Part shown: positions 693-29,227 of the stretch, one piece after another | How positions within the stretch are numbered: the first letter of the stretch is position 1 | How the letters are laid out: each line of letters starts with the position of its first letter | Source of the DNA: a virus | Virus record (IMG/VR): IMGVR_UViG_3300044940_000199 | Span: 1-29,630 of that record | Length of the DNA: 29,630 bases | Reading direction: 5' to 3' (one strand) | Program-made: the position numbers and the translations under genes | Notes under the pieces: generated by a model | What the model was told of the DNA's origin: nothing | Seen by the model: the letters and a program-made list of their open reading frames with translations, nothing else | Databases searched by the model: none

Positions 693-1093
693 GCGCGGTC
701 GTGGAAGCGGCGCGGTCCTATCTCGGCGTTCCATGGCGACACCTTGGGCGCAGCCGCATGGGCGTGGATTGCATCGGGCTGGTCATCTTAGCGCACCGTG
801 ACGTGGGCATCATGCTGGACGATCCGGCACCGTATGCGCGGGAGCCATCCGCCGCGCGCATCATTGCTGGTGTGGACGCTGTAGGCGAACGCCGCGTGGC
901 GGCGCCACAACCGGGTGACGTGGTGGTGTTCAAAGTGGATGGGGTCAACGCAGGCCATGTCGGCATTGCTGCGTCGCGTGATGGTGTGCCGACAGTTATT
1001 CACGCTTATGCTCCGCGCCGCCGTGTAGTAGAAGAACCTCTGACGCATGACCTCGCAGACGCGCTGATCGGCGCGTGGCGCATCGGAGGTTGA
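689..1093 (+). CDS. NlpC/P60-family tail-associated cell-wall peptidase
   Basis: This 134-residue protein has the NlpC/P60 pattern: catalytic Cys in MGVDCIGLV (about residue 28) and His in AGHVGIA (about residue 91), with a second His in the following strand (VIHAYAP). Family members of this size in alphaproteobacterial phages and gene transfer agents sit at the tail tip and cut peptidoglycan cross-links as DNA enters. It lies between the hub and the large tail-tip gene, the standard position. Start ATG overlaps the previous stop by four bases. Confidence 0.9.
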   Translation: MSAVVEAARSYLGVPWRHLGRSRMGVDCIGLVILAHRDVGIMLDDPAPYAREPSAARIIAGVDAVGERRVAAPQPGDVVVFKVDGVNAGHVGIAASRDGVPTVIHAYAPRRRVVEEPLTHDLADALIGAWRIGG

Positions 1094-1096
1094 CGG

Positions 1097-4000
1097 ATGG
1101 CAGTCCTGGCGCTTGCTGCTGGTGGTGCACTGGTAGGCTCCGCGCTTGGCGGCGGCGTTCTGACCTCGATCGGGTGGACTGCGGGCGCGCTGCTCGGCCA
1201 GGCACTGTTCCCGTCTCGCCCTGCTGGTGGACCGCAGCTCGGCGATCTCACGGTCCAATCCAGCGCTTACGGCACGCCGATCCCGCTCATCTACGGCACC
1301 GCGCGGTTGGCCGGGAACATCATCTGGTCCCCAGGCATCAAGGCGCGCAAGCAGCGCCAGAGGCTCGGCAAGGGTGGTGGGCGCAGCAGCACCACCTATC
1401 GCTACTCGGCATCCTTCGCTGTGGCGTTCGGCGAGGGGCCTGGCAAGATCGTCAAGCTGTGGTTTGACGACAAGGTTGGATATGATGCGACTGGCGGAAG
1501 CCTGCAAATTCGTATTCCAGGCCTGAGATTCCGCGCGTATGAGGGCAACGAGACGCAGCAGCCTGATCCTCTGATCGCTGCCTCTGCACCGCAGGGCAAG
1601 ACGCCAGCATATCGCGGCATGATCTACGTCGTGTTTGAGGACCTGGACCTCGAACCATTCGGCAACCGGCTGCCCAACGTGACTGCGCTGATCTCCACCA
1701 GCGTCACCAGCGTGAATGTGGATGAGCCTGCGAACCTGCTCTCAGGTTCGTATTACGGCGGTTTGGGTTGCGGCGATATCGCGACACGGCGCATGTATTT
1801 TGTCACCGCCAGCGATATTATCGTTGAGCTTGATTATGTAAACCGGACCGCGCGCGCTGTTCCGAATACGGAAGTGCTAAAGGGAGAAGTTCTGTGCTGT
1901 TTCCCAGGCGGTCCGCTTGTTGGCATGAGGAAGGAACCCCTTAACTACAAACCAGTGCGCGCAATTGATCCTATTAGCGGCGCATTGCTGTGGGAATGGG
2001 GGTTTTTCTCTTCCTTTGGCAACTTGGACGGCATAGGAGGAAACGCTTCTCGCGCAGCCGCAATTGAAGTGCGCGGGCCTAGACGTCGACGTTTTTTTAT
2101 AGCGGAATCGAGAATTGGTTTGGGAGAGGATGATACACCGCTTATTCTTGATGCGAATAATGGCACGACTATTTCCCAAAGCCGTGGCAGCAACGTCACG
2201 AAGTTGTATCTTCCGCGCAGCGGAGCGCGCGGCTTCTTCGTGCAAGGCGAGCAGCGGGTCGGCGAGACTGATGCTTGGCATATCAGCGTCGCATCTTCTG
2301 CGCAGGAGATCGACGTCTGGCGGTTGCGGATCACAGACGGCGCTGCCTATTCCCCGCCGCCAGCTGGTGTGACGACAGGGATCGTGCCGACCCTGGCAGG
2401 CACTATCACCGCTTCTATGCTCGGCTTTGTCTCCGCTGGCGCGCCCACAATTCTCACCGCAGCATGGGACGCGAGCGACGATAGCCTGATCGTGTTTGTA
2501 TCGTGGCCTGGGACGCAACTAAGCACTCAGCGCTTTGCGTTCAAATGGTCGCCGTCTTCTGGCGTGGTGTGGCGCACGCCCGGCCATACGAATGTTATTC
2601 CGCATGGCGTGAGCAACGCATCAGGTCACCTGCTCGTGCGCGGGCGCATTGCCTGGATCGGAAGCACCGGAGATGGCGTCGTCATCAACACAAGGACTGG
2701 CGCCATCGAGCAGCAAGGTTCGTTGACGTCGCATCCCAGCATTCCGGCTCCGATCTGCCTCTTCGACGGTGACTACGATCTTGCAGTGTCGTTCACGCGC
2801 CGCTTGCTGCTCGGTCGCGCCACGACTGGAACGGTGTCGCTGTCCGGCATTGTGCAGGACATCGCCAAGCGCGCCGGTCTCGCTGCTTCCGACCTATCGC
2901 TTGGTGCGCTGACAGATCAGGTGCGCGGCTACGTCGTCAGCCGCGCAGGTTCAGCGCGCGATGCGCTTGAGCCGCTTGCCGCTGCATTCCTGTTCGACCT
3001 CGTCGAGACTGACGGGCAAATGCGCGCCGTCAAGCGCGGTGGCGCGGTGTCCGCGACGATCAACTACGATGATCTTCTGCGCCCGCAACCGAGCGCAGGC
3101 GTGCTGACCGAGGACCGTGCGCAGGATCGGGAGCTGCCACGCCGTCTGACGCTCCGCTATCTCGATGTGGACCGCGACTACGAGGTCGGTGCGCAGACCT
3201 GGCAGCGGCCCGCTGCTCCGATCTCCGTCAGCGGCTCCGAGAGCACCGCAACTGTGGACGTGGCGGTGCCTATGACGGCAAGCGAAGCGCGCAGCCTGGC
3301 GCGCCGTTTGCTCATGAGCGCCTGGCGTGAGCGCAACCGTGTTACCTTTGGCGGCACTCCGCGCCACCTCCGCTTTGACCCTGCCGACGTGCTAAACGTC
3401 ACGCGCGCAGATGGCACGACGATGCGCCTGCGTCTCACGCGAGCTGATCTCGGTGCCGACTACACCATGCGCTTCGAGGCTGTGGAGGAGGACCCAGCCG
3501 ACTACGCGCTGACCGCTCCAGGCGTGACCGGCGACTACTTCGCCAACGGCATGCCAATGCCCTATGTGACGCGGGGGTGGGCGCCAAACTTGCCGCTGCT
3601 CTCTGACACTGATGACATCAACGGAACCGCGCTGCGTGAATACCTGCTGGCGGGTGGATATGGCGACAACTGGCGCGGCGCGGAGGTGGCGCTGTCCGAT
3701 GATCTGACGTCGTGGACTGACCTTGATGCGATCGTGGATGGCGTGCGGTGGGGCGCGGCAGCGAACGCTCTCGGCGCGCCTGCATCAGTGTGGACATGGG
3801 ACGACGTGAACACGCTGACAGTGTGGATGATGAGCGGCGAGCCCGAGTCTGCCACCGACTTGGAGGTGTTGAACGGAACCAACCTTGCCGTTCTGCTGAC
3901 GCCGAGCACCGGCACGCTTGAGCTGATCCAATGGCGCAACGCAGTGCAGAACACTAACGGATCGTGGACGCTCTCGCGCCTTTTGCGCGGCAGGCGTGGA

Positions 4001-4519
4001 ACCGAGGACGGTTCGACCAACCGCGCGGCAGGCGATGTGTTCATCATCCTTGACGACGAGGCTGCGCGGCTGCGCCTGCAGTCGCCTGTGTCGCTGCTCA
4101 GCGCGACGCGTTATTATCGCTTGCGTGGGCAGTTCGATGTGCCAGCGACAGCGACTGTGATCACCAAAGTCTCGCGCGGCCGAGCGGAGCGGCCTTATGC
4201 GCCGGTGCATATCACCGGCACTCGCGACCAGAGCAACAACCTCACAGTCACATGGGTGCGGCGCACGCGTGTGGGCGGGGAGCTGCGCGACCTGACTGGT
4301 GACGTGCCGTTGGGCGAGGCAAGCGAGACCTACGAGGTAGAGTTCCTCAACGGCAACACAGTCGTGCGCACTGTGACCGGCCTCACGTCGCCGACAGTCA
4401 CCTACAGCGCAGCCCAGCAGACGACAGATGGCATCACGCCAGGCAATCCAGTCGGCGTGCGTGTCTATCAGATGAGCGCGCTGGTCGGACGCGGCATTCC
4501 AGGGAGTAGGACAGTATGA
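1097..4519 (+). CDS. Large tail-tip / host-recognition protein (TipJ, GTA megatron-like)
   Basis: This 1140-residue protein starts after a clear GGAGG seven bases upstream. The N-terminal Gly/Ala-rich hydrophobic stretch, then GTPIPLIYGTARLAGNIIW, is typical of the large tail-tip proteins that follow NlpC/P60 genes. Residues about 575-800 resemble the phage tail TipJ region (VQDIAKRAGL ... FLFDLVETDGQMRAV), and a conserved LLRGRRGTED motif lies near residue 970. The last ~100 residues look like a fibronectin-III-like strand domain. Between about residues 215 and 565 there is a repetitive beta-strand region resembling a propeller that typical relatives lack; its first part (about 1780-2170) is visibly more AT-rich than the flanks. 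Inferred role: tail-tip assembly, cell-surface contact and DNA channel. The stop overlaps the next start (ATGA). Confidence 0.88.
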   Translation: MAVLALAAGGALVGSALGGGVLTSIGWTAGALLGQALFPSRPAGGPQLGDLTVQSSAYGTPIPLIYGTARLAGNIIWSPGIKARKQRQRLGKGGGRSSTTYRYSASFAVAFGEGPGKIVKLWFDDKVGYDATGGSLQIRIPGLRFRAYEGNETQQPDPLIAASAPQGKTPAYRGMIYVVFEDLDLEPFGNRLPNVTALISTSVTSVNVDEPANLLSGSYYGGLGCGDIATRRMYFVTASDIIVELDYVNRTARAVPNTEVLKGEVLCCFPGGPLVGMRKEPLNYKPVRAIDPISGALLWEWGFFSSFGNLDGIGGNASRAAAIEVRGPRRRRFFIAESRIGLGEDDTPLILDANNGTTISQSRGSNVTKLYLPRSGARGFFVQGEQRVGETDAWHISVASSAQEIDVWRLRITDGAAYSPPPAGVTTGIVPTLAGTITASMLGFVSAGAPTILTAAWDASDDSLIVFVSWPGTQLSTQRFAFKWSPSSGVVWRTPGHTNVIPHGVSNASGHLLVRGRIAWIGSTGDGVVINTRTGAIEQQGSLTSHPSIPAPICLFDGDYDLAVSFTRRLLLGRATTGTVSLSGIVQDIAKRAGLAASDLSLGALTDQVRGYVVSRAGSARDALEPLAAAFLFDLVETDGQMRAVKRGGAVSATINYDDLLRPQPSAGVLTEDRAQDRELPRRLTLRYLDVDRDYEVGAQTWQRPAAPISVSGSESTATVDVAVPMTASEARSLARRLLMSAWRERNRVTFGGTPRHLRFDPADVLNVTRADGTTMRLRLTRADLGADYTMRFEAVEEDPADYALTAPGVTGDYFANGMPMPYVTRGWAPNLPLLSDTDDINGTALREYLLAGGYGDNWRGAEVALSDDLTSWTDLDAIVDGVRWGAAANALGAPASVWTWDDVNTLTVWMMSGEPESATDLEVLNGTNLAVLLTPSTGTLELIQWRNAVQNTNGSWTLSRLLRGRRGTEDGSTNRAAGDVFIILDDEAARLRLQSPVSLLSATRYYRLRGQFDVPATATVITKVSRGRAERPYAPVHITGTRDQSNNLTVTWVRRTRVGGELRDLTGDVPLGEASETYEVEFLNGNTVVRTVTGLTSPTVTYSAAQQTTDGITPGNPVGVRVYQMSALVGRGIPGSRTV

Positions 4520-5223
4520 CGACGCCCAACTTAGTCATTCCGCATGTCGCCGCATCACAGAACCAGAAGGAAGTCACGATCAACAGCGCGTTTGACGCGC
4601 TTGACAACGCGACAAACCGCGAGGTGGTCATCACTTATGCCGACGCAGACGTGACGCTGACAGCAGACCAAGCGCGCAGAAACGCGGTGATCCGCTGCAC
4701 AGGTAGCGTTACAGCGAACAGGCGGCTGATCCTCCCGTCAGGGAGACGTTTGCTTTGTGTGGACAACCGTGTTGCCGGCAACCGTTCAATTGAGGTAGGT
4801 TACGCAGCAGGCGAACGTGTGTGGGTTCCGCCCGCGGCATCCGTTTGGGTGCAGGGAGACACAACGAATGTCCTGGCGATCGGTGTTGGCGCAGAGATTG
4901 GGTTTTTTGTCGCCGGGCAGCCTGGCGCAGACGAGCTGGTGGGCATCTTCGTGGCGACGCGGCGGCTTGTGGTGCCAGCAGGTGCGCCTGGTGCGCGAGG
5001 CTACGCCGAAACCGTGCCCACAGCGGCTGCGCAGTTCCCCATCCACCGCAACGGCGTGTTGGTCGGGAATGCAGCCTTTGGCGCAGGCTCCAACACCGCC
5101 ACGTTCACTGTCGCTAACGACGCAGTGTTCCAGCCTGGCGATAGGCTGATGCTGCGCGCGCCGCTGGTTCAGGATACCACGCTGGCGGACATCGCCATCA
5201 CTCTTCGCGCGAGGATCATCTGA
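4516..5223 (+). CDS. DUF2793-like tail fibre/tip protein
   Basis: The N-terminal segment PHVAASQNQKEVTINSAFDA (residues about 7-26) matches the start of DUF2793 proteins, which are common next to tail-tip genes of alphaproteobacterial phages and prophages. The C-terminal ~100 residues (FPIHRNGVLVGNAAFGAG, then DRLMLRAP and LADIAITLRA) form a strand-rich module seen at the ends of many such fibre proteins. At 235 residues it is compact. It is translationally coupled to the gene before (ATGA) and one base from the gene after. Function as a receptor-contact accessory is inferred from position. Confidence 0.75.
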   Translation: MTTPNLVIPHVAASQNQKEVTINSAFDALDNATNREVVITYADADVTLTADQARRNAVIRCTGSVTANRRLILPSGRRLLCVDNRVAGNRSIEVGYAAGERVWVPPAASVWVQGDTTNVLAIGVGAEIGFFVAGQPGADELVGIFVATRRLVVPAGAPGARGYAETVPTAAAQFPIHRNGVLVGNAAFGAGSNTATFTVANDAVFQPGDRLMLRAPLVQDTTLADIAITLRARII

Positions 5224-5224
5224 C

Positions 5225-6268
5225 ATGGCCTACATTCTGATCGAGGGCTTTGACTACTACAACGCGCACAGCGACATCGCGGCATCGCCGCAGTGGCCTG
5301 TGTTGCCTGCCCAGAACACAATCACATTCGTTTCCGGCTTCTATAGCCATGGCCGTGCTGTTTCAATCCCCAACGGTTCCACGGCTTCCGGAATGACGGC
5401 TGAGCTGTCCTCTACGGCTGCTGAAGTGTTTCTTGCTTTTGACGTGCTTTTCGAGGCTCTCCCAACAACAACTACTTCAAGGTTTGTTGCATGTATGGAG
5501 GGCACAACAACACACGCAAACCTCGCAATTACGAATAGTGGCGCTATCCGCATGCGTCGTGACACGACGCAGCTTGGGTCGGACAGCACTTTCACTTTCG
5601 CATTGAACGTGCGCTATCGTGTCGAGATGCGCACCGTTATTGCGGACACCGGTGGTCTGATTGATGTGCGTGTGGACGGCACTTCCGTTGCCTCTGTGTC
5701 GAATGTGGACACTCGCAACGGCGGTAGTGGTGTTGCAAACCGCATTGAGATTTGGAGTATGATTCAATCCTCAAATATCGGGCGCACCATCTACGACAAC
5801 CTCACTGTCAACAACACCACTGGCGCCGCTCCGACCTCATGGCCAGGCGCGCGACGCATCGAAACGATCTTTCCGAACGGCGACGACTCTGTGCAGTGGA
5901 CACCATCGCAGGGGTCGCTCAACTACGATTTGATCAAAGACGCGACGCCGGACCTGCTGACCTGGGTGCAAAGCAACACTGTCGGCCAGGTGGATCGCTA
6001 CGACCTGCAAGACCTCAGCGGCACCCCGACAGCAATTGACGCAGTGCAACTCGTCACACGCGCAGGGCGCTCGGATACCGGCGCGCGCACGATGCGCGGA
6101 TTCATCCGCTCCGGCACCACCACGGCCAACGGAGCGACGTTCACTCCTGTTGCCACGCCGAGCGGGCAATATGCGCGCGACACCTGGCACACGGACCCTG
6201 ACACGAACACTGCCTGGACTGCAGCAGGCGTGAACGCTTTGAAGGCGGGTGTCGAGGTTGTGTCGTGA
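5225..6268 (+). CDS. Tail fibre-like protein with predicted beta-sandwich domain
   Basis: This 347-residue protein begins one base after the DUF2793 stop. Residues about 30-200 (AEVFLAFDVLFEA, YRVEMRTVI, GLIDVRVDGTSVAS, IYDNLTV) have the alternating-strand look of concanavalin-like phage tail domains; the remaining ~150 residues (PTSWPGARRIETIFPNGDD onward) are a conserved phage tail C-terminal region. The central part (about 5380-5780) is less GC-rich than the flanks, as often seen in exchanged receptor-binding domains. I cannot assign a ligand. The stop overlaps a GTG start (GTGA). Confidence 0.7.
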   Translation: MAYILIEGFDYYNAHSDIAASPQWPVLPAQNTITFVSGFYSHGRAVSIPNGSTASGMTAELSSTAAEVFLAFDVLFEALPTTTTSRFVACMEGTTTHANLAITNSGAIRMRRDTTQLGSDSTFTFALNVRYRVEMRTVIADTGGLIDVRVDGTSVASVSNVDTRNGGSGVANRIEIWSMIQSSNIGRTIYDNLTVNNTTGAAPTSWPGARRIETIFPNGDDSVQWTPSQGSLNYDLIKDATPDLLTWVQSNTVGQVDRYDLQDLSGTPTAIDAVQLVTRAGRSDTGARTMRGFIRSGTTTANGATFTPVATPSGQYARDTWHTDPDTNTAWTAAGVNALKAGVEVVS

Positions 6269-6564
6269 CGCAGGCGCGCGTCTTCCAGCAGGGCGTGCAG
6301 GTGGTCCATGACCAGTTGCCGTCCAACACCGGAACTGCACGGGTGTCGCAGGTGGCGGTGCAGGTGGTGCGTGACCGCGCGGACTGGGTGGGCGACTACG
6401 CGCGCATCTACCAGCAGGCCGCGCAGGTGGTGCATGGTGACATTCCTGCCGACACCGGAACTGCGCGAGTGACGCTTCTCGCGGTGCAGGTGGTGCGCTC
6501 CGTTGGCCAGGGCGGAGGTGGTGGCGGCGGAGCGCGGCGCTCCGTCGTGGTGGTGGCGACGTGA
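6265..6564 (+). CDS. Small repeat protein of the tail-fibre region
   Basis: This 99-residue protein starts with GTG overlapping the previous stop. It contains two long imperfect repeats in which ARV(F/Y)QQ, VQVVHD and NTGTARV recur (residues about 4-45 and 46-82), then a poly-Gly stretch and a hydrophobic tail. Similar ARVTQ/VEVL repeat proteins often follow tail-fibre genes in phages. Function unknown; a fibre appendage or particle component is an inference from position. Confidence 0.65.
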   Translation: MTQARVFQQGVQVVHDQLPSNTGTARVSQVAVQVVRDRADWVGDYARIYQQAAQVVHGDIPADTGTARVTLLAVQVVRSVGQGGGGGGGARRSVVVVAT

Positions 6565-6577
6565 GTGGGAGGTTGCG

Positions 6578-6895
6578 ATGACCAAGATGAGCGATGGAAT
6601 TGTGGCAGTCGCCAACAGCCCACTGCGCGCCGTCCTTACGTCCGTAATCGGCAGCGTGACGCTGGCGCTGCTGATATGGGTCGCCTCGCTGCTTTCTTAC
6701 CTGGCGCACACGATGCCGGTCGTCGAACGCCGCATCGCAGCCATCGAAGCGCGCGATGACACTGCGAGAGAGCAGGCGATCGCGACACGGGAGGCTCTGG
6801 CAGTTCTGCGCACGCAGATGACCGGAATGCAAGAAGAGATGCGGCTTTTGCGAGCCACGCTGCTGCAGCAACAGCAGCGCGAACCCGCAAGGTGA
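6578..6895 (+). CDS. Single-TM coiled-coil membrane protein, candidate holin
   Basis: The start is chosen at 6578 because a GGGAGG lies seven bases upstream; a longer frame exists but starts inside the previous gene. The 105-residue product has one strong membrane segment (about residues 18-44, with IGSVTLALLIWVASLLSYL) and then a charged helical region with heptad spacing to the C-terminus. It sits directly before the endolysin, as holins do, but one membrane pass with a long coiled coil is not a classical holin layout; it may instead be an accessory lysis protein. Confidence 0.65.
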   Translation: MTKMSDGIVAVANSPLRAVLTSVIGSVTLALLIWVASLLSYLAHTMPVVERRIAAIEARDDTAREQAIATREALAVLRTQMTGMQEEMRLLRATLLQQQQREPAR

Positions 6896-17911: not shown

Positions 17912-18208
17912 TCAGCGTTCCGCGATCTCACCATCAAGCTCGCGCAGCATCATTGCATACACTGCCATATCATCCAAGCTGTCGCGGTGCCCGTTCTTCC
18001 ACTGGTTGGCGTAGCGCGACAACTTGCCTGCCACCTGCACGAAAATGCCGATGCGGTTCCAGTCGTCCGGTGTTTCAATACGGACTCCATTAGGGAACAG
18101 CTGCGCCATGAAGTAGCCGAAGCGCTTGTAGTTGTCCCCATAGAGAGCATTGCGCTGCTCATAGAGGTCCGCGCATTCACGCAGCATCTCGGGAACGCTC
18201 TTGCCCAT
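17912..18208 (-). CDS. DUF6378-like conserved phage protein
   Basis: I chose ATG 18208 (one-base overlap with the carbamoyltransferase stop, TGATG; GAGG nine bases upstream); a GTG one codon earlier is possible. The 98-residue product (ADLYEQRNALYGDNYKRFG ... GHRDSLDDMAVYAMM) has the YGDN and KD/RDS..D.A.Y pattern of the DUF6378 family, all-helical phage proteins with a distant look of MazG-type nucleotide pyrophosphohydrolases. A role in the nucleotide pool is an inference from this and from its neighbours. Confidence 0.65.
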   Translation of the reverse strand: MGKSVPEMLRECADLYEQRNALYGDNYKRFGYFMAQLFPNGVRIETPDDWNRIGIFVQVAGKLSRYANQWKNGHRDSLDDMAVYAMMLRELDGEIAER

Positions 18209-19809
18209 CACATGACCCTCATGTAGATCTTGCCGTTACAGAACACATAGCGGAAGCCGACATCCTCACACCACTGCATTGCGGAGTCAAGGTCAGGAAA
18301 GAAGCCACGGCCATTGTAGTTTGCCGAGGTGTTGGCAACGATCGGCAAACCTGCCATCTCATCCATCACCCGTAACATCTCCGCGATCAAAGGGTGCTGC
18401 CTACGGTTCACCGTTTGCAGCCGCGCGGTGCCGTCCTCGTGGACGATCGCAGGCGCAAATTGCACAGCGGCTGGCAGCGCGCGGTGGTCAAATAGCATAT
18501 ACGGATCGGCCGTGCCAGGATTGAAGAAATCTGTAGCGCGCGTCTCCAGACAGATCGGCGCAACTGGGCGCCACGACTCGCGCCTCTTGGCTGTGTTCAG
18601 CTTGTCCTTCATCGCAGCGCTGGACGGGTTGGCGATGATGGAACGATTGCCGAGCGCACGAGGCCCAAGTTCGGCTTTGCCGTCAAGGAACACAATCGGC
18701 TCGTCAGGTTCACTGAGCAGCAGCAGCGCCAGTGAGAACGCATCAGCCTTACCCATGCACTGCCAGCCCTGCCGCGCGCTGCCATTCTCGATCGGGGTGT
18801 GGCCGCAATACACGTCCCATTTCAAGGCTTTCACCCCATTCCTCGCAGCATGGCAGGCTGCTGTGCCGATCGCAGACCCTGAATCATTTGGGCATGGCGG
18901 CACCCAGAAAGATGGGTATGCCTCACGCATCAGGCTGTTCCACTTGATGTTCAACGCTGCGCCGCCAGTGAAGATCAGATTGTTCACTCGCTTCACACCA
19001 GCATTGTGCAGCCCGACGAGGAGCTCGTGGGCTATCAGGTCATGCACGAGGCTGAGCAGCTGGAGGTCGGTGTATCCCTTCCCATCACGGAAGCGTGCAC
19101 ACAGCGCTTCCATAAGGTCGTGCTCGTTCTTCCCATTCTGCTCGATACGAAGCGAAGGATGCTTGGCGCAGCTACGGAAAATCTGTGAAGCCTCCATGAC
19201 CGCATAATGGCTGGATGAACCAGCGCGAAGCCACGACATGATCTTACCAGGCCAGTCCCTCTGGCCGAACTGATCCTCAGCCGGGTTGCGCTTCCATCCC
19301 TTCGGCATCAGCGGCCCAGCGTAGTAGCACATGATGCCATACATCATCGCGTAGTATGGGAACAGAATCGAAAGCCGCTTTGGCGTTGGGTTGCCATACT
19401 CCATGAAGTAGAGCGTCGGCCCACAGCCACCATCCCAAACCAGCACATAGGCATTCTCCTTAGCGGCTGCGAATGGGCTCATCAGATACGAACCCACCAC
19501 GTGGCCGTGAAGGTGCATGTAACTGGTCACCGGTGGCGGAACATCAAGCGCAGGCACATCGAACTCGTGGTAGGTCGCAACAGGAAAGTTGCGATGCTTG
19601 CGCAACACGCCATTCTTCCAGCCATCGATGACGATCACATCGTCCGCTGCCGGTTTGAACGGGAGGATGTCTATCGCATCTTGGATGTCAGCCAGTGTGG
19701 TGTGGCGCGGGTTGTTATAGACCTTCTCCGCTTCATGGCAGAACAAGACTGTGTCGCCATCTATCGCAGCGACAGCTGCGTCGTGGGTAATCTTGACGCC
19801 GATGATCAT
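18208..19809 (-). CDS. NodU/CmcH-type carbamoyltransferase
   Basis: The start is set at ATG 19809, with AGGAGG seven bases upstream; a longer frame to 19932 runs into the HAD gene and is rejected. The 533-residue protein has the NodU/CmcH/TobZ layout: N-terminal kinase-like domain (HDAAVAAIDGD, CHEAEKVYNNPRH; TGGAALNIKWNS near 300; PCPNDSGSAIGTA near 325) and a YrdC-like-associated C-terminal part with ELGPRALGNRSI (about 405), KRRESWRPVAPICLE and VHEDGTARLQTV. These enzymes use carbamoyl phosphate and ATP to carbamoylate a hydroxyl group. Phage members have been linked to carbamoylation of 5-hydroxymethylcytosine in DNA. Here it lies with ThyX-like, HAD and HD nucleotidase genes, so a hydroxymethyl-pyrimidine is the most likely acceptor (inference). 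Confidence 0.92.
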   Translation of the reverse strand: MIIGVKITHDAAVAAIDGDTVLFCHEAEKVYNNPRHTTLADIQDAIDILPFKPAADDVIVIDGWKNGVLRKHRNFPVATYHEFDVPALDVPPPVTSYMHLHGHVVGSYLMSPFAAAKENAYVLVWDGGCGPTLYFMEYGNPTPKRLSILFPYYAMMYGIMCYYAGPLMPKGWKRNPAEDQFGQRDWPGKIMSWLRAGSSSHYAVMEASQIFRSCAKHPSLRIEQNGKNEHDLMEALCARFRDGKGYTDLQLLSLVHDLIAHELLVGLHNAGVKRVNNLIFTGGAALNIKWNSLMREAYPSFWVPPCPNDSGSAIGTAACHAARNGVKALKWDVYCGHTPIENGSARQGWQCMGKADAFSLALLLLSEPDEPIVFLDGKAELGPRALGNRSIIANPSSAAMKDKLNTAKRRESWRPVAPICLETRATDFFNPGTADPYMLFDHRALPAAVQFAPAIVHEDGTARLQTVNRRQHPLIAEMLRVMDEMAGLPIVANTSANYNGRGFFPDLDSAMQWCEDVGFRYVFCNGKIYMRVM

Positions 19810-19810
19810 A

Positions 19811-20278
19811 TCAGTATCCTCCTGACTGAACCTGCCAACACAGGACGCCTTGCTTACGCCATTCTTCCACCACCTTGTCGCGGTCCTCAAGCACCAGCGC
19901 AATGTGAAGCGACAAAGCGCCGAACCTGCCATACCGGTTCAGCCAATCCTTGACCATGCGCGGCTTCAGGATAGCATCTGGTGTTTTGTCACCATCAGGG
20001 CGCATGATCACATCATGAAAGTAGCGCAGCACGCCGTGTTTGACGAGCAAGGTTGCGGTTTGACTATAGTAGCGCTCCGGCGTTCCTGTGACGAGCAAGA
20101 GCCTGTAATGCTCTCTCATCACGCTGCAGAAGGTTGCCACCATCTCGTTGAGCGTGTCGTGCTCTTGCGCGATGTGGAAATCATCCCAACTGCGCAAGCG
20201 AGCGAGGTGCTCGCGGTGCTTGATGTTGAGAAGTGTCCCGTCCTTGTCCACGACGATGAAGCGATTGCTGAGCGGCAT
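19811..20278 (-). CDS. HAD-family phosphatase (Pnk 3'-phosphatase-like)
   Basis: ATG 20278 overlaps the thyX-like stop by one base (TGATG). The 155-residue product has HAD motif I VVDKDGTLLN (nucleophile Asp at about residue 11), motif II VTGTPERYY (Thr near 60) and motif IV VLEDRDKVVEEWRKQG (near 130), with Lys in DKTPDAILK as motif III. The EDRDKVVEEWR...G..CWQV segment is like the phosphatase half of T4 polynucleotide kinase. It could act on nucleotide or DNA phosphate ends; in this operon it may process a modified-nucleotide intermediate. It ends one base before the carbamoyltransferase start. Confidence 0.82.
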   Translation of the reverse strand: MPLSNRFIVVDKDGTLLNIKHREHLARLRSWDDFHIAQEHDTLNEMVATFCSVMREHYRLLLVTGTPERYYSQTATLLVKHGVLRYFHDVIMRPDGDKTPDAILKPRMVKDWLNRYGRFGALSLHIALVLEDRDKVVEEWRKQGVLCWQVQSGGY

Positions 20279-23960: not shown

Positions 23961-24040
23961 AATGCTCACTCCAGGACACTTAGCACCACGCCCATCGCAG
24001 TGCGCTTTTGGTCCGTAGCCTTATTCGCTTATCTCGCGTC

Positions 24041-24065
24041 GGAAAAAAAGTAGGTTTGCTGACGC
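24041..24065 (-). promoter_or_regulatory. Operon-leader motif, copy 2
   Basis: It matches 10543-10567 at 23 of 25 positions and lies 81 bases upstream of the first replication-block gene. Related but weaker strings (GCAGAAAGTGGGTTTCTA at 24231, GAAAAACTGTAGGTTTTCC at 24327) occur further into the gap. Probable promoter, operator or initiator site. Confidence 0.5.
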
Positions 24066-24238
24066 TGAAGCCTCGTGTGAAGAACGGCACCACGCTGCAA
24101 CGTAGAAGCCTCTACGCGACGAACGTGCTCATAGTGAACAGCCGTGACACTGGTGCGGCGCTGGTGTAACGGGGCGGCGGACCGGGGCGGCGATTAGGAC
24201 CGGAACGGCCCTAACGACCGCTGGAAATGGGCAGAAAG

Positions 24239-24324
24239 TGGGTTTCTACGGCCTGGCCGTCGCCGGCATATAAGGGTAGCGCGGACCTCGCTGGACCGCC
24301 CTAGAAACCCATTAGAATGGGTTT
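24239..24324. promoter_or_regulatory. Cluster of inverted repeats (TGGGTTTCTA / TAGAAACCCA)
   Basis: TGGGTTTCTA at 24239-24248 is the inverse of TAGAAACCCA at 24302-24311, and AAACCCAT (24305-24312) pairs with ATGGGTTT (24317-24324) across four bases. The shared arm allows alternative pairings. The segment 24294-24312 recurs, inverted, at 11165-11183. It could be an operator, an origin hairpin or a terminator, but no T-tract follows. Confidence 0.55.
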
Positions 24325-24533
24325 TCGAAAAACTGTAGGTTTTCCCTGACTTTGCGCGACCGACCGTTACGGAAGCGGCTCCAAAAAAGTGACGCCGAGG
24401 GCCAAAAAGTTGTTTTCATCGGGTGAAGGGTAGGGTAAAGTGACTTTGCCGCTGGTGAGCAGGGCCCCGCTAAAGCCCCCTCCCACCGGTCTGACTGGTA
24501 GGCCCGGACCCCGACAGGCGCTCGACGCGAGGG

Positions 24534-24613
24534 GTGGACAACCAGGAAGGAACGCTACGGCGTTACCCTTCTTCCGGCTCTGGTTTCCAGCAGACTGTCC
24601 ACCGGAAGGTGGA
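24534..24613 (+). ncRNA. Structured leader RNA candidate
   Basis: GTGGACA (24534-24540) pairs with TGTCCAC (24596-24602). Inside, ACCAG (24541) pairs with CTGGT (24580), GAAGG (24546) with CCTTC (24567), and AACGC-TACG-GCGTT (24551-24564) closes with a UACG loop, giving one long interrupted helix. TCCACC-GGAA-GGTGGA (24598-24613) is a second perfect hairpin that uses the same bases as the outer helix, so the two are mutually exclusive. No known riboswitch family is recognised. It would lie in the 5' leader of the gene at 24683. Confidence 0.5.
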
Positions 24614-24616
24614 GGC

Positions 24617-24682
24617 GATCGGCTCTAGTGCTCAGCCGCTGCGGCGGCTGGCACTTCACCTTAGTCATCCCGGAGGAAAGAA
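24617..24682 (+). promoter_or_regulatory. Repeated leader element, copy A (divergent)
   Basis: It shares GATCGGCTC, GTG and the hairpin CAGCCGC-TGCG-GCGGCTG with the four downstream copies, then departs and ends in CCCGGAGGAAAGAA before ATG 24683. It lacks the downstream CCGATC that closes the outer helix in the others, so it may be the oldest or a degenerate copy. Confidence 0.7.
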
Positions 24683-25072
24683 ATGAACCTGATCCGTGCA
24701 CTCGAGGCGCTCCACTTCGACACGTGCGAGGAATATCTCTACGTGAAGAGGCGCTTCGCGGAGGAAACCTCCAAAGGCGAGATCGCAGAAACCCTCTTCA
24801 AAAAGAGGGTGATGATGCAGGCGATGTGGGACGGTCTGTGGAAGATCAACTTTCCAAAGATCTGTAACCTCAGCGCTAGCGAAATCCTCGCTGTCGTCAG
24901 GAACGTCGAAAACGAGCTCACTGACGAGATCGTTATGGCAGCAGAGGGCATCGCCGAAACTGGCGAGTTGAACAGCACCGACGCGATGATGCGTCAGGTG
25001 GCTGCGCTCCGCATCGCTGGCAAGGCGAAGCTCGTCAAGCAACTGCGGTGCATCATCAAGCACGCGGAGTAA
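24683..25072 (+). CDS. Unknown early protein
   Basis: It has a strong GGAGG six to seven bases before ATG. The 129-residue product is acidic and helical (RRFAEETSKGEIAETLFKK; SASEILAVVRNVENELTDEI) with no membrane segment and no family I recognise. It is the first gene of the rightward unit, behind the structured leader and copy A of the repeated element. Probably an early host-interaction or regulatory protein, judged by position only. Confidence 0.65.
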   Translation: MNLIRALEALHFDTCEEYLYVKRRFAEETSKGEIAETLFKKRVMMQAMWDGLWKINFPKICNLSASEILAVVRNVENELTDEIVMAAEGIAETGELNSTDAMMRQVAALRIAGKAKLVKQLRCIIKHAE

Positions 25073-25149
25073 GGTCGGCTCCGGTGTCCAGCCGCTGCGC
25101 TGCGGCGGCTGGCATCCCGAACCGATCGTGGTTCGTAATGGAGGAAGTC
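25073..25149 (+). promoter_or_regulatory. Repeated leader element, copy B
   Basis: It begins directly after the preceding stop codon. GGTCGG (25073) can pair with CCGATC (25122-25127); between them CCAGCCGC (25088) pairs with GCGGCTGG (25105-25112). GAACC (25119) can instead pair with GGTTC (25130-25134), which uses part of the CCGATC arm. The element ends in ATGGAGGA, supplying the ribosome-binding site for ATG 25150. No T-tract follows any hairpin. Confidence 0.8.
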
Positions 25150-25515
25150 ATGCTGAAGGAAGTCCGCGAAATCGTCACCAAGGCTCTCGACGAGGCGATC
25201 GCTGCAAAGGCGAGCTTCGTGAAGCTGATCTCCGATGGCAATTTCAGCCCGGAGGCACTCGACATTTACCTAAGGAAGAAGGCTGCGAAGGAAGCGGCCT
25301 TGTATTTGGACATCCGCGTCTCGAAAGCCAACAACGAGAGCGAGGCAATCGAAGCTGCCGAGGAAGTCAAGCGGCAGCTGACCGAAGATGCTCTCTACAT
25401 CTGGGCCGAACGCGAAGAAAATCCGACGATCGCCTACTGGGCCAATCCCAGGATGGATGGCAAGTCGGATATCGTCAGGGAGATTGACAAGCTCTTGAGG
25501 CAAGCTGCAGAGTAG
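25150..25515 (+). CDS. Unknown helical early protein
   Basis: The start is ATG 25150, five bases after GGAGG; the ATG at 25138 is part of the repeated leader. The 121-residue product is charged and helical (VREIVTKALDEAIAAKASFV; EAIEAAEEVKRQLTEDALYI). No domain recognised. It lies between leader copies B and C; the stop TAG supplies the first base of copy C. Confidence 0.65.
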   Translation: MLKEVREIVTKALDEAIAAKASFVKLISDGNFSPEALDIYLRKKAAKEAALYLDIRVSKANNESEAIEAAEEVKRQLTEDALYIWAEREENPTIAYWANPRMDGKSDIVREIDKLLRQAAE

Positions 25516-25593
25516 GTCGGCTCCGGTGTCCAGCTGCTGCGCTGCGGCGGCTGGCATCCCGAACCGATCGTGGTTCATCATGGAGGAAAAACG
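25515..25593 (+). promoter_or_regulatory. Repeated leader element, copy C
   Basis: Almost identical to copy B. The hairpin arm reads CCAGCTGC against GCGGCTGG, so a C-G pair has become U-G and pairing is kept. Outer arm GGTCGG (25515) with CCGATC (25564-25569); alternative hairpin GAACC/GGTTC (25561-25576). It ends in CATGGAGGA before ATG 25594. Confidence 0.8.
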
Positions 25594-25812
25594 ATGGCGG
25601 AGTTCACGATCAATCCTGTGCGCACCTACGCAACGAAGCAAGCTGCCAGGAAGGCTGTTGCTCGGCTCGGGCTGAGCAATGTGCCGCACACGATCATCAC
25701 TGCAGAAGTGACAGCAGGGGATGGGGAAATCCTCATTCGCTACTATCCGCTGTTCATTGGGGAGCGTGCCCTGAGTGCAGGTGCACACTTCCACTTCAAC
25801 GTGATCGGCTGA
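25594..25812 (+). CDS. Unknown small early protein
   Basis: This 72-residue protein starts at ATG 25594 behind the leader's GGAGG. It has one basic helix (TYATKQAARKAVARLGLSN) and a strand-rich C-terminal half (HTIITAEV; GEILIRYYPLFIG; HFHFNVIG). No family recognised. The stop codon overlaps leader copy D. Confidence 0.6.
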   Translation: MAEFTINPVRTYATKQAARKAVARLGLSNVPHTIITAEVTAGDGEILIRYYPLFIGERALSAGAHFHFNVIG

Positions 25813-25906
25813 TCGGCTCCGGTGCCCAGCCGCTGCGGCGGCTGGCATCCCGAACCGATCATGGTTCCGCCTGACAATTCCGTCAGGCGATATGGAGGGC
25901 AGACTA
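25811..25906 (+). promoter_or_regulatory. Repeated leader element, copy D, with extra hairpin
   Basis: GATCGG (25811) pairs perfectly with CCGATC (25855-25860); the main hairpin is CCAGCCGC-TGCG-GCGGCTGG; the alternative GAACC/GGTTC is present. An additional hairpin, CGCCTGAC-AATTCC-GTCAGGCG (25868-25889), has been inserted between the conserved part and the ATGGAGGG ribosome-binding site. Confidence 0.8.
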
Positions 25907-26848
25907 ATGGCTCACGAGGTCGAAACGATGGCCTATGCCAACGAGGTTCCGTGGCATGGCCTGGGCAAGAATGTGCCGCCCAACGCAACGGTGGACGAGA
26001 TGCTGGTGGCTGCCGGCCTGGATTGGCAGGTTACCAAGCAGCCGCTCTACCTGCGCCGTGCGGATGGCACCTATCGTGCCACCAAGCGGTTCGCGCTGGT
26101 GCGCGACAGCGATGAGGAGATACTCACCTACACGAGCGAAGGCTGGACACCATTCCAGAACCGTGATGCGCTCAACTTCTTCCGGCGCTTCGCGGAAGCT
26201 GGCAGCATCAGCCTGGAGACGGCTGGCAGCTTGCGCAGAGGGAGGGTGATCTGGGCTTTGGCCAAGATCAACCATTCGTTCGAGGCCAAGCGCGGCGACC
26301 GCGTCAATGGCTATATCCTGCTGGTGTCACCTCACGAGGTCGGCAGCGCAATCAGTGTGCGCACCACCAGCGTGCGCGTTGTCTGCGCGAACACGATGGC
26401 ACTGGCGACGCGCACCGATGAGGGTGTCCACTATCGCCAGAACCACATGAGCGAGTTCGACGAGGCGGCTGCGCGTGCCGCTGTCGAGCGTGCTCATGAG
26501 CACATGAGTGAGGCGGCACGTCAGGCCAAGACGCTCGCCAATCTCAAGCTGGGGATGCACGACACGGTGCGCTTCCTCGGCCAGTTCTTCGGGCATCCGC
26601 AGATGAGCGATGAGGAGATTGCCGACGAGGAACGCTGGTCGCAGTCGCTGCGCGGTGTCATGGAGAGCGTGATCAGCGCGCCTGGTGCCGACCCTGGCAC
26701 CGGTTGGGGTGTCCTGGCCGGTGTTACCCACTGGTGCGACCACGTTGCTGGCCGCAGCGCCGATGCGCGGCTGACGCGCAGCTGGCTTGGCGACTACGCG
26801 CGGCTGAAGGAAGATGTCAGCGATGGCCTGATGATGCTGGCCAGCTGA
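25907..26848 (+). CDS. DUF932 family protein
   Basis: The start is ATG 25907, eight bases after GGAGG. The 313-residue protein shows the DUF932 (phage/plasmid-like TIGR03299) pattern: NEVPWHGLGKNVPPNATVDE at residue 11, LYLRRADGTYRATKRFALVR, then SEGWTPFQNRDALNFF and VRTTSVRVVCANTMALA. These proteins are common in phages and plasmids, are often strongly expressed early, and have no settled biochemical role. It has normal family length. Confidence 0.9.
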   Translation: MAHEVETMAYANEVPWHGLGKNVPPNATVDEMLVAAGLDWQVTKQPLYLRRADGTYRATKRFALVRDSDEEILTYTSEGWTPFQNRDALNFFRRFAEAGSISLETAGSLRRGRVIWALAKINHSFEAKRGDRVNGYILLVSPHEVGSAISVRTTSVRVVCANTMALATRTDEGVHYRQNHMSEFDEAAARAAVERAHEHMSEAARQAKTLANLKLGMHDTVRFLGQFFGHPQMSDEEIADEERWSQSLRGVMESVISAPGADPGTGWGVLAGVTHWCDHVAGRSADARLTRSWLGDYARLKEDVSDGLMMLAS

Positions 26849-26857
26849 CAGCCAACA

Positions 26858-26888
26858 CTGCGAGCGTCGCGCGGTGCGACGCTCGCAG
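26858..26888 (+). terminator. Strong intercistronic hairpin
   Basis: CTGCGAGCGTCGC (26858-26870) pairs perfectly with GCGACGCTCGCAG (26876-26888) across a five-base loop. It lies ten bases after the DUF932 stop and has no T-tract, so it may be a processing or mRNA-stability hairpin rather than a classical terminator. It replaces the repeated leader in this one gap. Confidence 0.6.
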
Positions 26889-26921
26889 CCTTACCCCAAC
26901 CTCAGGGCTGGAGACTTACAG

Positions 26922-27788
26922 ATGAACGACCTGAACGAGATGACTGGCCAGGAGCTGGTCGAGCTGTACAACGGAATCGCCGCGCGCAACGGCTGGAAGA
27001 AGGTGACGAGGTTTTCGTCACGCCAGGAAGGTGTGCGGCGCGTCCAGATCCTCATGGACATGGAGAAGCAGAAGGCAGAAGACAAGAACAGCAACGCGGA
27101 GGATGCGGTGACAAAGAGCGCGCTGCGCATCGCTGCTGCTGCCAAGGCAGAAGAGGAAGCAATCGCTGCCGCGAAGGCTGAGCGTGCTGCCGAGCGTGCT
27201 GCCGAGCGTGCCGCGAAGAAGGCTGCACGCAACACGCCGGAGGCCAAGGCTGCGCGCGCTGCTGAGCGTGCTGCTGCGCGTGAAGCCAAGGCGGCTGCGC
27301 GCGCTGCGCTGAAGGTTGAGCGCGAAGCTGAGCGTGCCGCCAAGAAGGCTGAGCGCGACGCTGCGCGCGACGCTGCGCGTGCTGCCAAGAAGGCTGAGCG
27401 CGACGCTGCGCGCGACGCTGCGCGTGCTGCCAAGAAGGCTGAGCGCGCAGCCCAGAAGGCTTCGCTGCTCAGCCGTGCTGCTGCTGCGTTCGGCGATGTT
27501 GAGTCCGATCTCAGCGACAAGATCGGAAGCCTTCCGGCGGCCAGCACGGTGGCCAGCCGCGTGAAGCGCCAGCCTCGCGATCGGGTGCCGCGCGGCAAGT
27601 ACACCAACAAGAAGATGTTCCCGATCGACAACAAGAACCCATTCCGCAAGGGCAGCGCGTCGTGGGCTGGGTTTGAGGTGGTGATCAACGAACCTGGCAT
27701 CACGCTGCGCGAATACCTGGAGCGTGGCCTGCGTCGGCAGAGCATTTTCTACGCGATCAGGCAGCAGTGGGTGCGGCTGGAGGATTGA
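26922..27788 (+). CDS. Ala/Lys/Arg-rich histone-like protein
   Basis: The start is ATG 26922 with GGAG nine bases upstream. The 288-residue protein has an N-terminal module (TGQELVELYNGIAARNGWKK, then RFSSRQEGVRRVQIL), a long low-complexity helical stretch (about residues 68-185) built of AKKAERDAARDAARA-type repeats, and a C-terminal basic domain (RGKYTNKKMFPIDNKNPFRK; ITLREYLERGLRRQSIFYAI) that could be a DNA-binding helix-turn-helix. The N-terminal module resembles one seen in small phage proteins with DUF3489-like features. A nucleoid- or DNA-binding role is inferred from composition. Confidence 0.7.
   Translation: MNDLNEMTGQELVELYNGIAARNGWKKVTRFSSRQEGVRRVQILMDMEKQKAEDKNSNAEDAVTKSALRIAAAAKAEEEAIAAAKAERAAERAAERAAKKAARNTPEAKAARAAERAAAREAKAAARAALKVEREAERAAKKAERDAARDAARAAKKAERDAARDAARAAKKAERAAQKASLLSRAAAAFGDVESDLSDKIGSLPAASTVASRVKRQPRDRVPRGKYTNKKMFPIDNKNPFRKGSASWAGFEVVINEPGITLREYLERGLRRQSIFYAIRQQWVRLED
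27339..27428 (+). repeat. Two perfect 45-bp coding repeats
   Basis: 27339-27383 and 27384-27428 are identical, followed by an 18-base partial third copy. Each encodes 15 residues, AKKAERDAARDAARA. In-frame expansion within the charged helix of the Ala/Lys/Arg-rich protein. Confidence 0.92.
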
Positions 27789-27870
27789 TCGGCTCCGGTG
27801 TCAGGCTGCTCTCGAAAGAGGGCAGCCTGCATCCCGAACCGATCATGGTTCGTCATGGAGGAGAGGGCAA
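27787..27870 (+). promoter_or_regulatory. Repeated leader element, copy E, rewritten hairpin
   Basis: The flanks match the other copies (GATCGGCTCCGGTG; CATCCCGAACCGATC; CATGGAGGA), but the main hairpin has a different sequence: CAGGCTGC (27802-27809) with GCAGCCTG (27822-27829), extended by CTC/GAG around a GAAA loop. The stem is kept although most of its bases changed, which is direct evidence that the structure matters. GATCGG (27787) pairs with CCGATC (27839-27844) and overlaps the preceding stop. Confidence 0.82.
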
Positions 27871-28914
27871 ATGGCCAACCACGTCATGACTATCTATCGC
27901 GCCAACGACGGCGCTGTGATCTTCAGCGGCGAATACCCTTCCTTCTGCGAAGCGGTGAACGCTGCTGTGGTTCATGGATTTGACCTCAGCGGTGCTGATC
28001 TCAGCTGGGCTGACCTGCGCGGGGCGGTTCTGCGCAATGCTAGCCTGTGCTTTGCTGATCTGCGAAACACCAATTTGCGTGATGCAGATCTGACAGGCAC
28101 CAACCTCAACAGCGCTGATCTGCGCAGTGCTGATCTGCAGAACGCCAACCTTAGCGACGCTGATCTTCGTTGCGCAGACATGCGTTGCGCGATCCTCACA
28201 GGCGCCAATTTGAATAAGGCTGACCTGAGGGACGCGAACATGTCAAAGGCCAAGATGAATGGCGCGTCGCTGGCCTACGCGAACGCAAACTGCGCCAACT
28301 TCGATGGCGCAAATATGCAGCGCGTCATTGCGAATGAAGCGGGCATGTGTGGCGCTTCTCTGCACAGCGCTGACTTGCGTCGCGCTGTGCTCAAAGGTGC
28401 CGATCTGTTCGATGCCGACTTGTCCGGAGCAGATCTGTCCGACGCCAAGATGGAAGGCACAAGGTTGAGTGGCGCTGTGCTGAACAACGCGGTGCTGCGC
28501 AACGCGATCATGGTATGCGCGAACCTGACTGGCACACAGATGCGTGGCACTGACCTGAGCACTGCGTGGCTTTTCGGAGCGAGGATGCCAAACACAGATT
28601 TGCGTGGTGCAGCGCTGCCGGATGTGCCGACCGTCCGTAACATCGATGCGGCGATCCTGAATGCGATCGGCCAAGACAGCGCTGGCCTGGACATGGCCTG
28701 CTGGCACAGCCGCTGTTGGACCACACACTGCCGTGCTGGGTGGGCAGTTGCGCTGGCAGGCAAGAAGGGCAAGGATCTGGAGACCAAGATCGGCACCAAC
28801 GCTGCTGCAGCACTTATCTATGCAGCCAGCACGCCAGGCGGTTGCATCGTTCCAGACTGGTATGCGGAGAAGGAAGAGGCGATCGCCGACATGCGCAAGC
28901 GCGCAGGACTCTAA
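27871..28914 (+). CDS. Pentapeptide-repeat protein with conserved C-terminal domain
   Basis: The start is ATG 27871 behind the leader GGAGGAGAGG. The 347-residue protein has about 40 A(D/N)LxxA-type pentapeptides from about residue 31 to 245 (for example DLSGADLSWADLRGAVLRNA), which form a right-handed beta-helix. The last ~90 residues (MACWHSRCWTTHCRAGWAV; AALIYAASTPGG; PDWYAEKEEAIADM) match a domain often attached to phage pentapeptide proteins. Some family members mimic DNA and bind gyrase; that role is only possible here. Confidence 0.88.
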   Translation: MANHVMTIYRANDGAVIFSGEYPSFCEAVNAAVVHGFDLSGADLSWADLRGAVLRNASLCFADLRNTNLRDADLTGTNLNSADLRSADLQNANLSDADLRCADMRCAILTGANLNKADLRDANMSKAKMNGASLAYANANCANFDGANMQRVIANEAGMCGASLHSADLRRAVLKGADLFDADLSGADLSDAKMEGTRLSGAVLNNAVLRNAIMVCANLTGTQMRGTDLSTAWLFGARMPNTDLRGAALPDVPTVRNIDAAILNAIGQDSAGLDMACWHSRCWTTHCRAGWAVALAGKKGKDLETKIGTNAAAALIYAASTPGGCIVPDWYAEKEEAIADMRKRAGL

Positions 28915-28938
28915 CACAGACATGAAGGGAGAAGAGAA

Positions 28939-29184
28939 ATGAGCAGATGGTTCCGCGTTGTTGGGTATGGCACCAATGGCGGTGCTGCCAAGCGCAGCGC
29001 TGAGGCTGCATGGGAATCCGCCCTGCGTGCAATTCCAGAATGGCTGCATGGCTCACAAACCGCTCGCTTCCATCTCACTCTGGTGGAAGGCACCACACGG
29101 AAAGCAGTTGAATCTGCCGATGTGTCTCGCTCCAACGGGAGACACAGGCGTGGAGAATGGTGGGTGGTGCAGACAAGTCGGTGA
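28939..29184 (+). CDS. Unknown small protein
   Basis: This 81-residue protein starts at ATG 28939 after AAGGGAGAAGAG. It is basic and has an aromatic strand at each end (MSRWFRVVGYGTNGG; RRGEWWVVQTSR). No family recognised. It is the last gene before the CCTAGG array and is not preceded by the repeated leader. Confidence 0.6.
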   Translation: MSRWFRVVGYGTNGGAAKRSAEAAWESALRAIPEWLHGSQTARFHLTLVEGTTRKAVESADVSRSNGRHRRGEWWVVQTSR

Positions 29185-29198
29185 CCCATTCACCAAGG

Positions 29199-29227
29199 CT
29201 AGGGCGGCTGGGGAGTGCCGCCCCTAG
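29199..29227 (+). terminator. GC-rich hairpin at the head of the array
   Basis: CTAGGGCGGC (29199-29208) pairs with GCCGCCCCTAG (29217-29227) with one bulged base and an eight-base loop, 14 bases after the last stop codon. It may end early transcription, though no T-tract follows. Its right arm is the first unit of the tandem array, so the array may have grown from it. Confidence 0.5.

Follow-up and report, generated by a model that had tools for sequence, protein, structure and literature searches.

Many otherwise different phages share an RNA family that is absent from Rfam 15. The family shows strong covariation, and the slots that it occupies between genes are also filled by hammerhead ribozymes or by other hairpins. 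The element's probable role is to mark sites of cutting or punctuation in a long phage message. It was identified in an IMG/VR virus contig, analysed whole and referred to here as the window (29,630 bases), in which four gaps of a plus-strand gene cluster at the right end hold one copy each (B–E; Table 1). Rfam 15 models run against 24000–29200 of the window at E<10 gave no match on elements B–E, and none of the RAGATH families within Rfam 15 matches the element. Judged against Rfam and open-access papers, which give partial coverage, the element appears to be unlisted, and it may have been described earlier elsewhere.

Each of copies B–E begins with an outer arm of six pairs (GGTCGG or GATCGG, with CCGATC as its partner) and continues through CTCCGGTG, a P2 hairpin of 8–12 pairs and CATCCCGAA to the closing arm. 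In each of them CATCCCGAACCGATC lies 3′ of the hairpin, GGTTC follows 2 nt further on, and GGAGG and the start codon come next, which is the order given in the preliminary description of this DNA. The 17-mer GGCATCCCGAACCGATC recurs at 25111, 25553, 25844 and, with one mismatch, 27828, whereas shuffles expect 0.08, and the RNA folds of all four copies beat those of shuffles (z-scores in Table 1). The preceding stop codon has offsets of -3, -2, -1 and -1 in B to E, in agreement with the earlier observation that the elements start at or overlap it. A fifth gap had been described as carrying the same element, but the claim held for B–E only. Copy A matches D at 92% across 37 nt and lacks CGGUG, CATCCCGAA and the closing arm. 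Its covariance-model score is 13.2 bits (E 0.91, P2 stem only) compared to 58–67 bits for B–E, and its fold is ordinary relative to shuffles (z -1.66). Copy A scores as background, and B–E are one conserved RNA element. The extra hairpin on the D side is changed in a close relative, with its pairing kept (CACCTGGC/GCCAGGTG). No intrinsic terminator (GC hairpin with T tract) was found on the plus strand of 24300–29200, which supports the earlier view that simple termination is unlikely.

Table 1. Positions of the element copies, their parts and the neighbouring genes in the window
Feature	Position	Strand	Score or remark
Copy A, degenerate or hybrid	24617..24676	+	5′ half alone resembles D; without conserved core, without closing arm
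Gene after copy A, 129 aa, no family	24683..25072	+	
Element B	25073..25127	+	cmsearch 64.8 bits; fold z -3.44
Element B outer stem	25073-25078/25122-25127	+	
Element B core CTCCGGTG	25079-25086	+	
Element B P2 hairpin	25088-25112	+	
Element B core CATCCCGAA	25113-25121	+	
Gene after element B, 121 aa, no family	25150..25515	+	
Element C, anatomy as B	25515..25569	+	cmsearch 62.2 bits; fold z -2.55
Gene after element C, 72 aa, no family	25594..25812	+	
Element D, immediately 5′ of DUF932 gene	25811..25860	+	cmsearch 67.4 bits; fold z -3.43
Extra perfect hairpin CGCCTGAC/GTCAGGCG	25868..25889	+	between element D and ribosome-binding site
DUF932 gene after element D	25907..26848	+	PF06067, E 7.7e-38
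Element E, P2 longer (12 bp)	27787..27844	+	cmsearch 57.9 bits; fold z -3.97
Pentapeptide-repeat gene after element E	27871..28914	+	PF00805, E 1.9e-49
GGTTC, alternative GAACC partner	B 25130..25134; C 25572-25576; D 25863-25867; E 27847-27851	+	
GGAGG ribosome-binding site	after B 25140..25144; C 25582-25586; D 25894-25898; E 27857-27861	+	

Further copies were searched for with a DNA pattern scan, then with gapped patterns fixing the two core strands alone, and then with covariance models built from those matches. The pattern scan identified a close relative, contig 3300045921_000462, with four copies and 91–94% protein identity to the window, and the gapped patterns revealed copies in unrelated phages. 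The covariance models added further copies in the same records, Gemmobacter caeni prophages, Paracoccus phage vB_PbeS_Pben1, two phages recorded as infecting Microcystis and three more Rhodobacteraceae genomes. About 30 records of phages or prophages match the covariance model, several of them from Paracoccus and Gemmobacter, with 1–5 copies per element-bearing phage; true matches score ~28–70 bits, nearly all with E < 1e-4. The element is present in at least 4 of 395 Rhodobacteraceae genomes, and sets of 385 genomes from the class and 398 genomes from the phylum added none, with only a few candidates scored per genome. Most pattern matches in genomes and several in viral contigs were rejected as coding-sequence or chance matches without a hairpin. 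Weak model matches of 15–30 bits in coding DNA were dismissed, and a 24-bit match (L404) is a low-complexity repeat instead. Mimicry of 5S rRNA was also considered: CATCCCGAAC is a 5S loop sequence, but the core variants CATCCAGAG and CATCCCATG do not fit 5S. Pattern matches in Pontibacter, with 12-base spacers, are taken as ordinary 5S or chance.

Among 42 distinct copies, both-sided change was observed in 11 of the 12 stem pairs. The covariation score was 0.661 compared to 0.179 in shuffles and at most 0.143 with slid partners, and there were 135 compensatory cells compared to 45 in shuffles. Fitting of the alignment to the model biases these counts towards the structure, but the slid controls, taken from the same alignment, collapse. 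The copies had initially been proposed to be a shared RNA-level element, with a lack of covariation in relatives as one of two findings that would speak against it. The covariance model and the covariation in relatives bear the proposal out on this half. Pairing extends through the core, where two lineages have U-A in place of C-G at pair 9-66 and one has A-U in place of U-A at pair 8-67, which makes the element a single, near-continuous imperfect hairpin. In the window and its relatives this hairpin is 48–58 nt long and has 18–24 pairs; the stems are variable and the 'loop' is mostly paired. At its centre C10 and GGUG face AUCC, with C or A at position 65, and this arrangement is constant throughout the alignment. 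Most core letters had been fixed by the search patterns, and the invariance was therefore rechecked in 10 distinct copies beyond the reach of any pattern. C10, GGUG and AUCC were constant in 10/10 of these, while Y7, U8, C9 and positions 65–68 varied. A copy outside the alignment (L551:1865) departs further (TTCATGTG) and is probably degenerate. A REP-like mobile palindrome was rejected since the stems vary with compensation and the centre stays fixed.

Of 50 copies, a set that includes near-identical phages and hence non-independent copies, 45 have the upstream stop codon between -3 and +1 relative to the outer stem. For 28 of the 45 the position is +1 (xTGAxx), and this accounts for the frequent A.C mismatch at pair 4. 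Nearly all copies precede a start codon, usually 11–47 nt downstream, and, judged by position in the DNA, they lie in gaps within co-oriented gene clusters, as T7-type sites do. A selenocysteine signal was rejected, as B follows TAA and C follows TAG, and so was sequestration of the Shine-Dalgarno sequence (SD) by the YUCC strand as a general rule, since in some copies the SD follows the outer stem after only 1–2 nt and one (L463) is without a nearby SD. The genes downstream of the copies are mutually unrelated, and at blastp sensitivity every protein family is confined to 7 or fewer of the 27 phages with the element. A common phage-coded partner protein is thus not seen. Both results bear on whether the element could be a protein-binding operator, at the centre of which a host or phage RNA-binding protein would control downstream translation or decay. 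The base-specific conservation within a bulged helix (CGGUG/AUCC), near the ribosome-binding site, is what protein sites typically show. However, in addition to the unrelated downstream genes and the lack of a common family, the ribosome-binding site lies outside the hairpin, and we consider an operator unlikely.

Type II hammerheads (RF02276) are located directly 5′ of the DUF932 gene, in the slot of element D, in contigs L030–L034, whose DUF932 proteins are 47–50% identical to that of the window. L031 has five hammerheads in one cluster, each between a stop codon and a ribosome-binding site. No RF02276 match was obtained in the window at the gathering threshold or at E<10, and none in the element-bearing phage records, which are mostly metagenomic fragments in which absence proves little. 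In one Rhodobacteraceae genome (G063) both a type II hammerhead and the new element occur, though on different contigs (C58, C61). Many other DUF932 relatives are without such an element in that slot, and a DUF932 relative with a slot hammerhead was found neither in Aminobacter phage Erebus nor in Rhizobium phage RHph_I1_18, both named cultured phages. Clustered prophage hammerheads have been reported to cut polycistronic RNA in vitro, and one set to do so in vivo in E. coli (Perreault et al. 2011, PMC3088659).

Hairpins other than hammerheads also take turns in one slot. Relatives hold the window-type element, a second hairpin type or a third 5′ of a gene for a 226-aa protein (L408:2240). The sister contigs L550 and L551 match at 483/501 positions upstream and 487/500 downstream (96–97%) and carry different ~57-nt elements in one slot, making these near-identical phages natural swaps. 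The second type, UGAURCUYUG - hairpin - GGCAYCAUGCC (L551:2920-2977, L552, L568, L571–L577; no Rfam match), fills the slot where sister phages hold the window-type element. The third, GGUUUUACACUAC - hairpin - UUGAGGGUAAAAUC, lies 5′ of the 226-aa gene in L554–L563, L578 and L579, with no Rfam match among the copies scanned. All non-hammerhead occupants are imperfect hairpins of ~20 pairs. In the window, the gene between A and B (24683-25072, within 24617-25127) is absent from the close relative (L007 4300-4353), where the left flank of A and the right flank of B meet at a single element. The slot swaps and the missing gene indicate that elements are exchanged and that genes come and go between them, so that the elements act as gene gain/loss junctions. 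This upholds the mobile part of the preliminary comparison with cassettes of T4-type phages, as the L550/L551 swap, the shared slots and the A–B gene junction all show exchangeability. Like the T4-type promoter-stem-loop (PeSL) cassettes, the elements are repeated, apparently exchangeable stem-loops between early genes. In contrast to PeSL cassettes, what they conserve is an RNA core within the hairpin and not a promoter. The promoter part of the comparison was not borne out, since a scan for sigma-70-type sites on the plus strand of 24300–29200 found 0 compared to 0.8 expected. The element also resembles the RAGATH candidates (RNAs near genes that neighbour ribozymes) in having been found via a gene neighbourhood shared with hammerheads, but differs in matching none of their families, a comparison limited to those in Rfam 15.

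As a yardstick, the T7 sites R0.3, R0.5, R1, R1.1 and R1.3 were folded from NC_001604 at the positions that we take to be those of its RNase III sites. Like the element, they sit between early genes and fold as ~20-pair imperfect hairpins, with central defects, a common central sequence, and an outer stem and loop that vary. Some lie right at the upstream stop codon, as the element does, and the 5′ arm of R0.5 holds the gene 0.4 stop codon. With its 18–24 pairs the element has the same anatomy, spanning about two helical turns as an imperfect hairpin whose defects lie at the centre. The T7 sites have another centre, however, and the element, unlike them, is found in many unrelated phages; the covariance model R2 had no match in T7 800–6700. 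Host RNase III cuts the early T7 mRNA at the five sites into mono- and dicistronic messages (PMC4858673), and R1.1 has an asymmetric internal loop (PMC6121014). Cleavage is thus known in T7, whereas for the element we infer it. These likenesses suggest that the element may work like the T7 sites without being their homologue.

We tentatively propose that the element is an intercistronic RNA-processing hairpin, cut most likely by host RNase III at the invariant centre. Since the element occupies the same place as hammerheads and is swappable for another hairpin, it probably does the same job, and since the non-hammerhead types share the anatomy of T7 RNase III sites, a cut by a host enzyme at the invariant centre is favoured. 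The element would be transcribed within a long phage message, and the RNA after each upstream stop codon would fold into the imperfect hairpin of about two helical turns. The hairpin would mark a cut of the message into shorter mRNAs, 5′ of the next ribosome-binding site, and the cutter would most likely be the host double-strand RNA endonuclease RNase III, as at the five sites of T7 early mRNA. In the window lineage the freed 5′ end (CGAACC...GGTTC) could then refold as a new end hairpin, with the ribosome-binding site left open. With a hypothetical cut near CATCC/CGAA, the 3′ products of several copies are predicted to fold a GAACC/GGTTC end hairpin, although other folds are favoured for C and E. 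Should the various occupants of these slots be interchangeable cutters, phages would have traded RNA catalysis and host-enzyme-directed cutting for one another at one place. RNase III substrates are not obviously dependent on an invariant CGGUG/AUCC core, which argues against this enzyme and suggests a more specific recognition. In addition, the double-stranded substrates required by RNase III of the alphaproteobacterium S. meliloti are longer than those of its E. coli counterpart (PMC6121014), so that 18–24 pairs, being short, count against an RNase III cut. We also count against a processing hairpin that the hammerhead-bearing relatives are distant and that so many DUF932 relatives lack the element.

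The element shares with type II hammerheads the slot between stop codon and ribosome-binding site, the several copies per early cluster and the DUF932 neighbour, but is without the hammerhead core and the three-way junction. It could belong to a new class of small self-cleaving ribozyme, with the invariant centre as its catalytic core, which Rhodobacteraceae phages would use instead of hammerheads to cut early mRNA between genes. The identical slot, the several copies per operon ahead of unrelated genes, the lack of a visible shared phage protein and the constancy of C10, GGUG and AUCC even in the 10 pattern-independent copies would all fit such a ribozyme. The covarying extension, on the other hand, turns the element into an almost continuous hairpin with one-nucleotide defects only and with no junction or recognised pseudoknot, which is, to our knowledge, unlike the known natural small ribozymes. 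The elements swapped into one slot are also plain imperfect hairpins, and we regard self-cleavage as rather unlikely. Occupation of one slot by strong hairpins of several unrelated sequences would equally suit a passive insulator or stabiliser, which would protect mRNA ends or separate the translation of neighbours without specific cutting. A passive hairpin would need neither an invariant core nor a hammerhead counterpart, however, and this makes it quite improbable.

A two-state switch was put forward in the preliminary description: either CCGATC takes the outer arm as its partner or GAACC takes GGTTC. Read as a riboregulator, it would control translation through this choice. GAACC/GGTTC pairing is present in 8/8 copies of the window lineage (4 each in the window and in contig 3300045921_000462), and no distinct copy outside this lineage has the GGTTC partner, which makes it a lineage-specific add-on. 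The pairing itself was thus upheld in the eight copies, but exclusive pairing is not conserved across the family and the switch is not supported as the core idea. The outer-stem state (P1) and the alternative are within ~1 kcal/mol of each other for B, C and E, and P1 is favoured by 4 in D. A riboregulator of this kind is most improbable, as the retention of GGTTC in all eight copies and the nearly equal energies stand against the missing partner elsewhere and the fact that GGAGG itself is not paired by the switch in either state.

Other features were observed in and around these regions. A perfect hairpin, CTGCGAGCGTCGC/GCGACGCTCGCAG, lies in the gap that follows the DUF932 stop codon (26857-26887) and is without the conserved core. 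The ~440 bases at 24170-24610, 5′ of the plus-strand cluster, are apparently non-coding and rich in short palindromes, and are possibly a control region. At the right end of the contig (29210-29530) there are tandem units of 11–12 bases built on GGCCGCCCCTA/GGCCCGCCCCTA (CCTAGG palindromes), and 18208-19932 holds a phage gene for a Nol-like carbamoyltransferase (phrog_1601). The hammerhead-bearing contig L033 (4788, 5395, 7038, 7072 and 8647) has repeated promoter-like blocks, CATAAAAACACTTTTCTTTTCTGTC...GCATAAGAC, as well as another kind of repeat close to its hammerhead.
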